Below, piece by piece: positions 5,950-10,441 of a stretch of DNA of 64,000 nt (position 1 is its first letter; the number at the start of each line of letters is the position of its first letter). The translations under genes were made by a program, and so were the position numbers. The stretch is from Candidatus Micrarchaeota archaeon CG1_02_47_40 (GTDB lineage: Archaea; Micrarchaeota; Micrarchaeia; Anstonellales; CG1-02-47-40), in the NCBI GenBank assembly GCA_001871475.1, contig MNVE01000002.1:124001-188000 (forward strand), written 5' to 3'. The notes beneath the pieces were generated by a model. That model was given only the letters and a program-made list of their open reading frames with translations, had not been told where the DNA came from and did no database searches.

Positions 5950-6501
5950 TCAAGAAATTTTTTCCTTAATCGCTGAAAAAAGCATTGTCCGCCCGTCGTA
6001 ATTCCAATAAGTCACATCCTGTTCTATGAACAGCCATTTCAAAACCTTCAATACCAGCTCAACGCTCAACCCCTTCTCAAATTTCAGGTTGGGGTGCTCT
6101 TTTGCAACTTCCGAAGGACTTCTGCATTCATAAACCTCTTTTATCATTCTCATCAATTCAGTCGTTTTTTCGGGATTTTCCTTCCTTTTAATCTCCAAAT
6201 CCTCCACAATATCTTTATGGCTTGGTTTTTTGTCCTCATTTTCGGAGAATCTTTCAACCCAAACCTGAAAATCTATCCCCTTATTCAGAAAAGTAGGCCT
6301 GTAAAGGTAGATTCTTCTTCCATCGCTTAACTTTTCAACAAAATACTTATATCTCGTTACGTGTTTTTTTCCATCCTTCCAATAACCCGGTTTTTCAGAC
6401 AAGAAAGCTTCCACAATCCTCTTTCTTAGTGCATTTCTGTCATTATCCGCAAGATTCAACTCAATCTCATGCTCTTCATACACTTTCTCATTCTTTTTCA
6501 T
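5950..6501 (-). CDS. Hypothetical protein overlapping the 3' end of dam; candidate restriction partner
   Basis: 183 aa ORF overlapping the dam stop by 14 bp in the same orientation; no recognised motif. Confidence 0.6.
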   Translation of the reverse strand: MKKNEKVYEEHEIELNLADNDRNALRKRIVEAFLSEKPGYWKDGKKHVTRYKYFVEKLSDGRRIYLYRPTFLNKGIDFQVWVERFSENEDKKPSHKDIVEDLEIKRKENPEKTTELMRMIKEVYECRSPSEVAKEHPNLKFEKGLSVELVLKVLKWLFIEQDVTYWNYDGRTMLFSAIKEKIS

Positions 6502-7372
6502 ACAATCGCGTGCCTGCGGCTATTTCTTCCACGAGCTTCCCCTTGCTTACCTCGGGCTCCCAGTTCCTGACTATTAATTCTTTCACCTTCCCCCTCCTGT
6601 CCCCCTTGCAGTTTATCATTCTATTCGCATGGACTACTTCAGGCTCAAATTCAGCGTAAAGCTCGCTTATGAAATCCGAGTGCGAATTGCTAAGCAAAAC
6701 AAAGCAGCCTCGTTTATCAAGCTCCTTAAAAGCTTCCAATAATCTCAACTGATCCTCTTCCGTAAAGCTGTCTTTAGTATATCCTGTAAAGCTGGAAGTC
6801 TTGGAAATCGGAAAGTAAGGAGGGTCAAAATAGACCAAATCCCCTCTTTTTGCGTTGTTCAAAACTATGGTGAAATCCCCATTGTAAAGCGCATCCTTCT
6901 GCAAAGCCCGATGCACCAGGAGCAAATTCTTCCCATCCAGTATTTTCGGGTTGGAATACCTGCCGAAAGGAACATTGAACCCGCCCTTTGAATTCACCCT
7001 ATACAATCCATTGAAAGCAGTTTTATTCAGGTAAATGAAACGCGCCGCCCTCTCCACCCTGTCAAGGGGTTTGGAGGAGCGTATCGCATAATACGCTTCT
7101 TCATCATTTGAGTATTTTGGAATGGAAAGCTCGTTTATAAGCTCAAAAACATTGTTTTTGACTGCGGAATAAGTGTTAATCAGCTCTTCATTTGAGTCGC
7201 TAAGGTATGCTCTTTTTATCTTTCCAACTGCCTCCAGCCTGAAGAAAAGAGCGCCGCCTCCTAAAAATGGCTCATGGTAATTCTCAAATTCCGGCAAGCC
7301 ATCAACTAACTCTTGCAAAAGCTGTCTCTTTCCCCCTGCCCACTTCACAAATGGCTTTACTTCCTCTAACAT
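6488..7372 (-). CDS. dam: DNA adenine methylase, D12 class (Dam-like)
   Basis: FVKWAGGKRQLL (motif I), EPFLGGGALFF, DLVYFDPPYFPISKTSSFTGY (DPPY). Confidence 0.95.
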   Translation of the reverse strand: MLEEVKPFVKWAGGKRQLLQELVDGLPEFENYHEPFLGGGALFFRLEAVGKIKRAYLSDSNEELINTYSAVKNNVFELINELSIPKYSNDEEAYYAIRSSKPLDRVERAARFIYLNKTAFNGLYRVNSKGGFNVPFGRYSNPKILDGKNLLLVHRALQKDALYNGDFTIVLNNAKRGDLVYFDPPYFPISKTSSFTGYTKDSFTEEDQLRLLEAFKELDKRGCFVLLSNSHSDFISELYAEFEPEVVHANRMINCKGDRRGKVKELIVRNWEPEVSKGKLVEEIAAGTRLYEKE

Positions 7373-7401
7373 TTATATCAGCGACATTAGTCAAGCTTCC
7401 G

Positions 7402-7434
7402 GGCTTTTAAAAGCTTCTTAGGGTGGAAGTCCGA
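7402..7434 (-). promoter_or_regulatory. Upstream element of dam, shared with the PIN-GNAT-ASCH gene
   Basis: Minus strand TCGGACTTCCACCCTAAGAAGC-TTTTAAAAGC; a near-identical element lies at 9488-9518. Confidence 0.55.
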
Positions 7435-7437
7435 CCT

Positions 7438-7896
7438 CTATCTCCTTGCAATATCCATTACTATCTCTTTTGGCGCATACCTGTAATCCTGTGGCGGAGT
7501 TAACCCATAACTCTGAAGTATCTTCCTGCTAATCGACTTTTCCAGCGGCAAAACCTTCTCAATTATAAGCGCCACGCTCTGCTTTGAACCGCGGTAATAT
7601 TCATTGAAATAAGTTTTGGATATTGCACATTTATTTCTATATCTCTCCCAGATGACTTTTGCAGGCGCCGCATCAAATTTCTTTATTTTTATGAGAAATG
7701 TCGCCTGTTTCTTGGGGGCGCTCTCATAAACTATGGCGAATTTTGGGAGTTTTTTAGGCAGCCTTTTCCTTAACTCAACGGTTTTCTCTCCGTTTAGTAT
7801 AAGCTCTGAAAACCTGGGCTGAATTGAAATAAGGAGTAGCTCGTTATTTTTTTCAACGCGAAAAGCATCTTCAATGCAAAATTTTTTTGCTTTCAT
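7438..7896 (-). CDS. ASCH/PUA-like domain protein
   Basis: LISIQPRFSELILNGEKTVELRKRLPKKLPKFAIVYESAPKKQATFLIKI is characteristic of the ASCH fold family. Confidence 0.75.
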   Translation of the reverse strand: MKAKKFCIEDAFRVEKNNELLLISIQPRFSELILNGEKTVELRKRLPKKLPKFAIVYESAPKKQATFLIKIKKFDAAPAKVIWERYRNKCAISKTYFNEYYRGSKQSVALIIEKVLPLEKSISRKILQSYGLTPPQDYRYAPKEIVMDIARR

Positions 7897-7951
7897 GTGC
7901 GTTGCCCATAATACTGACAGCCTTGTCTGTTATAAATACAATAGATGTCGC

Positions 7952-9463
7952 TCATTCTATGGTAAGCGCACGGTCAAAATTGCCGAGTTCTTTTATTTTT
8001 TGGTACTTTTCTTCGCTGAGTTGCTGGATTGATTGCGGCGGACCAGCAAGAACGCCTGCTCGTTTTAAATTTTCATAATCCACTGGTTTCTTGAGGTTGA
8101 AATGCCATCTAAATATAATCACCAACGTTGGTTTTTTTGTCATTTCTTTTATTTCTGCAAATGAATATACTGTTCTCTTTCCAACCTGTTTTTGCACTTG
8201 GGAAGAATCTGTCTGTCGTGAGTATGCCTTTTCCACGCTTCCAACACACGTTATTTGGCTGCGTCCTCCGGACAGATAAAAAAGCAAGACATCTCCAGGC
8301 TTCAGCCTAAGAGTTATTGCATTTGAGAGATAAGCTTTCGTAATGCTGTTGCCTTCAATAATCATTTCACCTTGGTATTCCATTAACTTTGGAGTTCTTG
8401 GTTGCTCAATAAACAAACGTTCATGAAATTGTGGTTGGATTGGTATTAGGAATTTGTTTACTTTGGTGCCGTCATAGAGGGCAGGATAAAATAGCTTATC
8501 CATCGAAACTGACTCCAGCGTTTCCTGCTCCTTCCCTTCTGGATAAATCCTCTTGTAGAAAACTCCATCTCCATATTTTTTTGTTTTTCCAATGCAGTAA
8601 AATCCATAATCTTGTATCAGATTTACAAGCCGGTCTTGCTCTGTGACAAAGTGAGTCAAATATAAATCGCGCACTCCGTTTTTTAGCGCAAACTCAAAAG
8701 CCATTTTAAGGAAGAGTTCGCCGATTTTTTGCCCCTGCGCTTCGCTCTTAAGCAGGCAAATCTTAAGCCTTTTTTTAGGCTCAACAGTTTCGTTCTGAAG
8801 TTCCAGGGCATCTTCTTCCAGCTTGTATGTCATTATGGCTCTGAGCTTCATTTCTGAATCGTGGTATACCCATGCTTTTCTGCCCTTTCTTGAGATTTTT
8901 TTGAACCACTCATCAAAATCATAATACTCTTTTCTTAATGTGCCAAGGATAGGCTCGTTGATATCTATCATGCTTATTGGTATTTCCTGAAGAGCAGGCG
9001 GCGCAGCTGGTCTAGTGCCATCGGGATAAAGTCGTCTGAAAAGGTCAAGTGCGTCATCAATTTCCAGAACTCGGTCAGAGAGGTCTACCTTAGCGGCTTT
9101 CTTGATTATTTCTACGTCGTTTGTAATAAAATAGTCAATCGCATTGCGATAAACCGAATAAAGAAGAGCGTTGTCGGTTTGTTCATTCTCGTTTTTTGGT
9201 GCTCCTATTTTTGAGTCAAATTCCGTGTCTTTACCAAATGCATAAGTCGGACCTTCAAGGGTTGGATATGCAGTTATTTTGGATAGATTTATTTCTCTTC
9301 TTTCTTCATTAGCGTCCGTTTTTACTTCATTAAGTGATTCAGGATGCACAAGTATCTGGATAGCATTTTCCCTAAGCTTTTTTTCAAGCTGTTGGAGGTT
9401 TTCCGGGAGAACAGAATGCCCTTCCCGATAGATGAAGATATTTGTGTCTACGAGTACTCTCAT
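7952..9463 (-). CDS. Fusion protein: N-terminal PIN nuclease-like, central GNAT acetyltransferase-like, C-terminal ASCH/EVE-like domain
   Basis: MRVLVDTNIFIY...FITNDVEIIKKA (PIN-like acidic positions); KICLLKSEAQGQKIGELFLKMAFEFALKNG...LIQDYGFYCIGKTKKYG (GNAT-like); FLIPIQPQFHERLF...LKPGDVLLFYLSGGRSQITCVGSVEKAY (PUA-fold-like). Confidence 0.75.
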   Translation of the reverse strand: MRVLVDTNIFIYREGHSVLPENLQQLEKKLRENAIQILVHPESLNEVKTDANEERREINLSKITAYPTLEGPTYAFGKDTEFDSKIGAPKNENEQTDNALLYSVYRNAIDYFITNDVEIIKKAAKVDLSDRVLEIDDALDLFRRLYPDGTRPAAPPALQEIPISMIDINEPILGTLRKEYYDFDEWFKKISRKGRKAWVYHDSEMKLRAIMTYKLEEDALELQNETVEPKKRLKICLLKSEAQGQKIGELFLKMAFEFALKNGVRDLYLTHFVTEQDRLVNLIQDYGFYCIGKTKKYGDGVFYKRIYPEGKEQETLESVSMDKLFYPALYDGTKVNKFLIPIQPQFHERLFIEQPRTPKLMEYQGEMIIEGNSITKAYLSNAITLRLKPGDVLLFYLSGGRSQITCVGSVEKAYSRQTDSSQVQKQVGKRTVYSFAEIKEMTKKPTLVIIFRWHFNLKKPVDYENLKRAGVLAGPPQSIQQLSEEKYQKIKELGNFDRALTIE

Positions 9464-9487: not shown

Positions 9488-9518
9488 TTTAAATGCTTCT
9501 TAGGGGGTAGAAGTCCGA
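9488..9518 (-). promoter_or_regulatory. Upstream element of the PIN-GNAT-ASCH gene, shared with dam
   Basis: Minus strand TCGGACTTCTACCCCCTAAGAAGC-ATTTAAA. Confidence 0.55.
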
Positions 9519-9532
9519 TGGGGTGAGGCTTA

Positions 9533-10441
9533 CTACTCTCCTGTCTTTATTTCACTCCAAACAAGGTAATGGTCAGATATTGAAGAGTTTATCCCGTCTG
9601 AAAAGACTCCTGATGCAATATATTCGTTTTTCATGTCAGAATTGAAAATCATCCTGTCATATGTACAGTTGGTATTTCCTGTCGTGGTGTCAGTGCCGGT
9701 TTTTAAAGCCCAGAACCAACTCCCCTTGAAATCAGTTTTATTTGTATAATAATTGCAATCTGCATTCAAATCGCCAAGAACCACCAAGTTTCCTGACATA
9801 TTTGATGCGAGGGCATTCAGCGCCGACATCTCTTTTGGTGCGTCATCAGGCTTCGCATGTTCTACCAAAGCGGTGAACGTATAATTGCCGCGTTTGAAGG
9901 TAATTTGGAATGGCGGGCGCTCCCAGCGGTCTTGGATATCCGGATTGTAGTCTTTCATGCTCACTATACTTACTTTTTTGTAGATAACCCCATATTGCTC
10001 CTTGCTGGAGCTTCTGCCGGCTCTGGAAGAATTGAGACAGTTGTAACCCTCCATCAAAGCGCAGAGTTTGGGGAATGCCGTCCCGCTTGAGTCGCGTATT
10101 TCTTCTATGAATGTGATGTCATACTGCCGCATGGTGTCTGCATAAAAAGCCATAAGAGTTGCATTTTGCGCTTTCTTCTCTCCAAAAATCTGTAAATTCC
10201 AAGAGGCAATCTTAAGCGTTTCATTATTGCTAATTTTGGATTGAGCGGATACATTTGTTTTGGAATAGTTTGTTTGATTGGTTAATGGTTTTATACTCGG
10301 TGTTGCTGGCGGAGCAGATACGTTTAAGTTGGATGAATTTACGTTTGATGCTGTCGGTTCTACGCTCGAAGTTTGAGAGGCACAGCCAAAAATAAGCAAG
10401 CTTAACAGAATTGCGGAAATAAAAAGGAATCCTCTTTCCAT
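9533..10441 (-). CDS. Secreted lipoprotein of the endonuclease/exonuclease/phosphatase (DNase I-like) superfamily
   Basis: Lipobox LLIFGCAS; LKIASWNLQIFGEKK, VVLGDLNADCNYY, SDHYLVWSEI motifs. Confidence 0.85.
   Translation of the reverse strand: MERGFLFISAILLSLLIFGCASQTSSVEPTASNVNSSNLNVSAPPATPSIKPLTNQTNYSKTNVSAQSKISNNETLKIASWNLQIFGEKKAQNATLMAFYADTMRQYDITFIEEIRDSSGTAFPKLCALMEGYNCLNSSRAGRSSSKEQYGVIYKKVSIVSMKDYNPDIQDRWERPPFQITFKRGNYTFTALVEHAKPDDAPKEMSALNALASNMSGNLVVLGDLNADCNYYTNKTDFKGSWFWALKTGTDTTTGNTNCTYDRMIFNSDMKNEYIASGVFSDGINSSISDHYLVWSEIKTGE

Follow-up and report, generated by a model that had tools for sequence, protein, structure and literature searches.

Two side-by-side putative defence modules, probably co-regulated, in a Micrarchaeota genome: a PIN-GNAT-EVE/ASCH pair and a Dam/U183 pair

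Introduction

Do four neighboring archaeal genes, encoding a PIN-GNAT-EVE protein, an ASCH protein, a Dam-type adenine methyltransferase and a protein of 183 amino acids (aa) that we call U183, constitute a single system for sensing modified DNA? The genes are located in a stretch of 64,000 nucleotides (nt) from Candidatus Micrarchaeota archaeon CG1_02_47_40 (contig MNVE01000002.1, positions 124,001 to 188,000; hereafter, the window). The metagenome-assembled genome (MAG) comprises 1.15 Mb in 16 contigs and is 93% complete, and the window lies within a 206-kb contig. A preliminary description of the window had proposed that the methylase creates or protects a mark that is read by ASCH-like modules, which thereby gate a PIN/GNAT toxin, and knew of no described system with this composition. 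Based upon the module boundaries, the homologies, the linkage of U183 to GATC restriction-modification (R-M) loci, and a shared promoter element, all of which were computed here, we consider it probable that the locus holds two independent defence modules side by side, module A (PIN-GNAT-EVE and ASCH) and module B (Dam and U183), which are probably co-regulated.

Results

Gene layout

Four open reading frames, each starting with ATG, run consecutively on the minus strand at exactly the positions given in the preliminary description (Table 1). The start of U183 overlaps the stop of Dam by 14 nt, PIN-GNAT-EVE is separated from ASCH by 55 nt, and the other intergenic gap is 65 nt. Given the 55- and 65-nt gaps, and a promoter-like element that precedes PIN-GNAT-EVE and occurs again before Dam, the arrangement suggests that the four genes are transcribed as two units and not as a single operon. 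The divergence from a genome of the same family was too great for synteny to reveal an empty site.

Dam and its partner, U183

The D12-class assignment of the methylase was borne out by a match to TIGR00571 (E = 5.6e-88), and its nearest PDB chain is DpnM (2dpm; E = 1.4e-69), with the DPPY motif aligned and intact. The window protein is closest to the DpnM component of DpnII-type GATC R-M (DpnM, DpnA, and DpnII), operons of which contain U183 homologues, for example in Streptococcus ferus (L051) and S. sanguinis (L059). In contrast to those operons, the window has neither the DpnII nuclease nor DpnA; U183 is the sole candidate restriction partner. No DpnII or MutH/Sau3AI-like nuclease was found in the whole genome (PF04556 and PF02976 both without a match at E ≤ 1), where, since the MAG is only about 93% complete, such a gene could be missing from the assembly.

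U183 homologues were gathered by U183 patterns only, giving 84 loci spread across archaea and many bacterial phyla, and a neighborhood was defined as within 6 kb. A Dam, DpnA-like, DpnII, or MutH-like gene is present in 80 of these neighborhoods, with Dam the only recognized R-M gene at 14 of the 84, and PIN-GNAT-EVE is present at none (0/84). Two bacterial genomes (L083 5962-7449 and L087 1-1548), one of them that of Oscillibacter sp. PC13, encode U183 as an N-terminal fusion to Dam, and of five distant U183 relatives within the phylum (L029-L033), four are convergent to Dam. The real partner of Dam is thus U183, and not the genes of module A. Across the distant superfamily in the phylum (L029-L033), the only fully invariant residues are P93, H95, D101, P129, L157, and E160, which may represent a functional core.

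The preliminary description had left U183 without a family, and we likewise obtained zero matches in Pfam, PADLOC, NCBIfam, and PHROGs, and zero PDB sequence matches. Its AlphaFold2 model is confident (73 sequences; mean predicted local distance difference test score, pLDDT, of 94.6), and did not match any PDB fold at E ≤ 0.001. A viral fold search returned only an uncharacterized Streptomyces phage protein (E = 3.6e-3, TM about 0.5). A PD-(D/E)XK or other known nuclease was considered and rejected, given the lack of a family, PDB-sequence, or PDB-fold match. Module B looks like a compact GATC R-M candidate in which U183 belongs to an uncharacterized family.

GATC itself is strikingly rare, with 6 sites observed in the window versus 143 expected (observed/expected, 0.04), and 23 versus 283 in 110 kb elsewhere in the genome (0.08); these are the lowest ratios among the genomes sampled, the relatives ranging from 0.13 to 0.94. 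Depletion is common in the phylum, and for that reason it supports GATC restriction without proving it. In the window and in L193-L196, CTAG, GGCC, TCGA, and GTAC are also strongly depleted (0.16-0.45), in keeping with the several methylases that the genome encodes.

It is a genuine, if lesser, possibility that U183 is not a nuclease, and instead assists GATC methylases or nucleases as an accessory protein or by binding their target. DpnII or MutH-like nucleases occur at 49 of the 84 loci, at least one of the two U183-Dam fusions has DpnII in the same locus, and the methylation activity of a Prevotella methylase needed an unknown protein whose gene overlaps that of the methylase (PMC5608340). 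Such a role sits less well with the 14 loci at which Dam is the only recognized partner, or with U183 genes that lie beside DpnA-type methylases where no Dam was detected (for example, L035, L041, and L047), the latter also implying that U183 is no obligate Dam subunit.

The SsuDAT1I system of Streptococcus suis has two methylases and two GATC nucleases. The order methylase-methylase-U183-DpnII in S. ferus and S. sanguinis appears to resemble that of SsuDAT1I, one nuclease of which may be a U183 homologue; were this so, the activity of U183 would already be known. The existence of SsuDAT1I as a type II system is confirmed (PMC5198162).

A shared 14-nt promoter element

Upstream of PIN-GNAT-EVE is the element TCGGACTTCTACCC, and upstream of Dam is TCGGACTTCCACCC; each then runs into nearly the same sequence, which ends with TTTAAA. 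The element class was set after seeing these two copies in the window, and neither the genome-wide count nor the identity of the downstream genes played a part in the choice. With up to one mismatch, the genome contains 14 copies versus 0.31 expected, and a reversed control gave 0. Allowing two mismatches added only five copies, which is about background, and one of these precedes a LAGLIDADG nuclease. The maximum in any of 300 other genomes of the phylum is 3 copies. The 14 copies are spread over seven contigs (C1, C4, C9, C11, C12, C13, and C15; loci L138-L149, besides the two copies in the window); in all 14, a TATA-like box follows after about 8-12 nt, and the start codon lies mostly 53-81 nt downstream of the element.

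The units that follow the 14 copies are PIN-GNAT-EVE, Dam, two N4/N6 methylase units, a D12 methylase, an HsdM-like R-M protein, a C5 methylase, Cas1, TnpB, UvrB, a RadA-containing unit, DUF6847, a toxin-antitoxin-like array, and one unknown. Nine of the 14 can be firmly classed as defence or mobile genes, and the probability of finding eight or more such units among 14 is 9e-8 at an assumed base rate of 5%. These downstream genes are consistent with the element possibly defining a lineage-specific regulon of defence, mobile, and DNA-repair genes. In the run of small genes behind one copy (L138 1239-2226), a ribbon-helix-helix (RHH) antitoxin, a RelE-like toxin, and an MqsA-like protein can be discerned by eye, with no Pfam support.

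There is a parallel in archaeal viruses, where a shared regulatory sequence is found with anti-defence (early) genes (PMC11065993), likewise as one conserved promoter-region sequence that marks many conflict genes per genome. Those sequences front viral anti-defence genes, whereas the element described here belongs to a single archaeal MAG and fronts cellular genes for defence and repair. A scan of viral contigs for the element together with a TATA box gave no match.

The element could also be a promoter sequence that has spread or been inherited without a dedicated regulator, in which case there would be no meaningful co-regulation. We find this explanation possible but doubtful, since it accounts for the confinement of the element to this genome and the failure to identify a regulator, but not for the fixed spacing before the TATA-like box in 14/14 copies, nor for a downstream bias, over seven contigs, towards methylases, Cas1, TnpB, UvrB, and RadA.

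The PIN-GNAT-EVE protein and its ASCH partner

PADLOC matched PIN-GNAT-EVE to PDC-M11A over residues 1-502 of its 503 aa (E = 1.8e-142) and the ASCH protein to PDC-M11B (E = 6e-26), in support of the toxin or defence theme of the preliminary description. The longer protein had been read as PIN-GNAT-ASCH; the PIN and GNAT domains and the PUA-superfamily fold all hold, but the fused C-terminal domain is EVE (PF01878, 24.1 bits against a cut-off of 23), which has a PUA/ASCH-superfamily fold, rather than ASCH proper. In agreement, an AlphaFold model (12 sequences; mean pLDDT 81.7) searched against the PDB with Foldseek matched ZmASCH (5y6c; E = 1.5e-7), the EVE structure 1zce, and the GNAT toxins AtaT/KacT.

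The active site of the PIN domain is present, with D6, N8, D97, T114, and D116 invariant among 18 homologues and an acidic residue also near position 45; the match to the TIGR00305 PIN toxin profile is weak (E = 0.012). The Pfam match of the GNAT domain is also weak, and the NAA50 profile matches at E = 1.2e-5. G244, G248, and E249 are invariant among the 18 homologues, and Q243 and G248 fit the Q/RxxGxG/A loop, the fourth position of which is K246. A GNAT-RHH toxin-antitoxin system such as AtaT/AtaR or KacT/KacA was considered as well; here, the partner gene encodes an ASCH protein and no RHH antitoxin.

The partner scores 20.3 bits against Pfam ASCH, just below the cut-off of 21.2, and matches ZmASCH (5gus) at E = 5.2e-11, consistent with its earlier reading as ASCH-like. 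ZmASCH of Zymomonas mobilis (5guq) is a single-strand RNase in vitro (PMC5615036). Its Tyr47 and Lys53 are retained in the window protein as Y57 and K63, whereas Ser128 is replaced by D137, unlike in nearly all relatives. The ac4C (N4-acetylcytidine) amidohydrolase YqfB uses Lys21, Thr24, and Arg26, of which Thr24 is the nucleophile (PMC6972931). In a motif alignment, K38 and R43 are present, and the position of Thr24 is occupied by an invariant Glu41; we therefore rejected the idea that the ASCH protein is an acetyl-removing amidohydrolase of the YqfB type.

Module A loci elsewhere

A first scan of genome contigs queried with the PIN-GNAT-EVE protein gave zero matches. Our survey eventually covered 30 loci outside the window (three of them near-identical), from phages, proviruses, plasmids, viral contigs, and archaea. 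PIN-GNAT-EVE has an ASCH gene next to it in 30/30. Only L124 has a Dam-like gene close by, split into two frames, and none of the 30 has an intact Dam nearby. Other R-M methyltransferases are often alongside, namely Eco57I-type enzymes in three relatives of the same phylum (L024, L126, and L127, at 5, 118, and 67 nt from PIN-GNAT-EVE/ASCH, respectively), HsdM-type enzymes in L129 and L150, a type ISP enzyme in L135, and other methyltransferases in L122 and L123. The association with D12 methylases that the preliminary description led one to expect is missing, but one with other R-M methyltransferases is evident; PIN-GNAT-EVE is linked to R-M in general and not to Dam, and a methyl mark might therefore be read without Dam being required. 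Among 301 genomes of the phylum, PIN-GNAT-EVE is present in 6, Dam above cut-off in 32, and both in 3 (Fisher p 0.018). Only in the window do the two lie next to each other; the other genomes that encode both carry them on separate contigs.

Contrary to the suggestion that no such system had been described, Bell et al. (2020; PMC7641849) placed (PIN)-GNAT-EVE in a class of putative toxin-antitoxin systems in which ASCH is nearly always present and type I R-M is often near. By sequence, module A is a member of this putative class, which PADLOC lists as candidate PDC-M11A/B. The domain order, the adjacent ASCH gene, and the proximity to R-M are all as in the published systems, and the window differs in having the Dam/U183 pair as neighbor instead of type I R-M, and in lacking an AAA_17 ATPase and an HTH-ASCH (helix-turn-helix) fusion. 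In addition, PIN-GNAT-EVE and ASCH are spaced apart in the window, whereas they overlap in most relatives.

In Escherichia phage PhiR47_2, GNAT-EVE and ASCH homologues follow each other in the same order as in the window, and are annotated by the depositor as GevT toxin and GevA antitoxin (GenBank PV340567.1). Unlike the window protein, GevT has no PIN domain, and its function is known here from the record annotation alone. Prophage psiM100 of Methanothermobacter encodes a PIN-GNAT-EVE protein that is 38% identical (ORFD), with ASCH coming after it (ORF5); in contrast to the window, this pair is provirus-borne on an inserted fragment, without Dam. A literature search found no relevant paper on PDC-M11, GevT, or SsuRA. 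On the Halalkaliarchaeum plasmid pAArc-CO (L004 5001-6502), PIN-GNAT-EVE is split into two open reading frames, a few kb from cas3.

PrrC, located beside EcoprrI, provides a precedent for a toxin that guards an R-M system. Module A could act in the same manner, with PIN-GNAT-EVE firing once a neighboring R-M unit is inhibited or lost. The closely spaced Eco57I-type methylases of the three phylum relatives would fit, as would the published association with type I R-M (PMC7641849), but at least 20 of the 30 loci, alphaproteobacterial plasmids included, have no methylase by motif in the flanks examined, and no contact with R-M proteins is known, making such a guard unlikely.

Finally, a single four-gene system, in which N6-methyladenine (6mA) made by Dam is read by EVE/ASCH so as to gate the PIN/GNAT toxin, could appeal to the adjacency of the genes, the shared promoter element on both units, the predicted but unconfirmed role of ASCH domains as 6mA readers (PMC11037411), the other adenine methyltransferases often near PIN-GNAT-EVE, and the co-occurrence with Dam in the phylum, but was rejected as the best reading, and is very unlikely, because Dam is absent or broken at all 30 other PIN-GNAT-EVE loci, lies on a different contig in the other genomes with both, and has U183 as its partner.

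The features of the locus are collected in Table 1. Directly upstream of PIN-GNAT-EVE (9533-10441, minus strand) is a gene for a predicted lipoprotein with an endonuclease/exonuclease/phosphatase domain, which is probably unrelated.

Table 1. Coordinates of the features of the two modules (numbering of the window)
Feature	Position	Strand	Basis
Element TCGGACTTCTACCC, upstream of PIN-GNAT-EVE; TATA-like TTTAAA at 9488-9493	9505..9518	-	
PIN-GNAT-EVE protein, 503 aa, putative module A toxin; PDC-M11A	7952..9463	-	PADLOC, Pfam EVE, Foldseek
PIN domain, aa 1-146; acidic residues D6, E/D near 45, D97, D116	9026..9463	-	Conservation in 18 homologues
GNAT domain, about aa 158-310; loop Q243-G-Q-K-I-G248-E249	8534..8992	-	Foldseek to GNAT toxins
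EVE (PUA/ASCH superfamily) domain, about aa 327-503	7955..8485	-	Pfam PF01878, Foldseek
ASCH protein, 152 aa, putative module A antitoxin or regulator; PDC-M11B	7438..7896	-	PDC-M11B, ZmASCH 5gus, adjacency
Element TCGGACTTCCACCC, upstream of Dam; TATA-like TTTAAA at 7406-7411	7421..7434	-	
DpnM/Dam-type adenine methyltransferase, 294 aa, module B	6488..7372	-	TIGR00571, PDB 2dpm
U183, 183 aa, GATC methylase partner, candidate restriction component	5950..6501	-	Homologue loci, AlphaFold2 model

Discussion

We favor two independent modules, and for these we infer toxicity and its neutralization in module A, U183 activity and GATC specificity in module B, and co-regulation of the two. Module A would be a toxin-antitoxin or abortive-infection pair in which the ASCH protein restrains PIN-GNAT-EVE. 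Its trigger would be a nucleic-acid signal met by the pocket of EVE and/or ASCH, whereupon the GNAT domain, with its AtaT/KacT-like fold, would acetylate, and the PIN domain would cut, RNA, probably tRNA, and translation would stop. In module B, Dam would mark the adenines of host GATC sites, and U183, with its new predicted fold, would act on unmarked GATC DNA, either as a nuclease or as an essential restriction factor. Each module would have its own promoter, with the 14-nt upstream element in common.

Several observations weigh against this picture. For module A, the fourth position of the Q/RxxGxG/A loop in GNAT is Lys or Arg throughout the PIN-GNAT-EVE family, the ASCH protein has Asp in place of Ser128 of ZmASCH, and the toxin and antitoxin labels of GevT/GevA are record annotation. 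For module B, U183 has no recognizable nuclease motif and shares many of its loci with DpnII- or MutH-like nucleases, so that it may be accessory, and a nuclease gene may have escaped the incomplete assembly. GATC is also low in Dam-less relatives (observed/expected, 0.34-0.37) and is not low in some genomes with U183 (0.64-0.94), so that depletion tracks U183 imperfectly. Lastly, no regulator of the element is known.

A more far-reaching proposal, which we put forward tentatively and consider rather doubtful as a whole, is that U183 is a restriction factor specific for GATC and with a new fold, and that, in addition, one 14-nt element drives a regulon against mobile elements and for DNA repair, which would include PIN-GNAT-EVE/ASCH, Dam-U183, the other methylases, Cas1, TnpB, UvrB, and the RadA unit.

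Module A is a widespread putative defence candidate, and module B points to a widely distributed, uncharacterized candidate GATC restriction component without a PDB fold match. The shared element suggests that this uncultured archaeon controls its defence genes across the genome in a lineage-specific manner and, if the regulon is real, new defence genes would be recognizable from promoter sequence alone.

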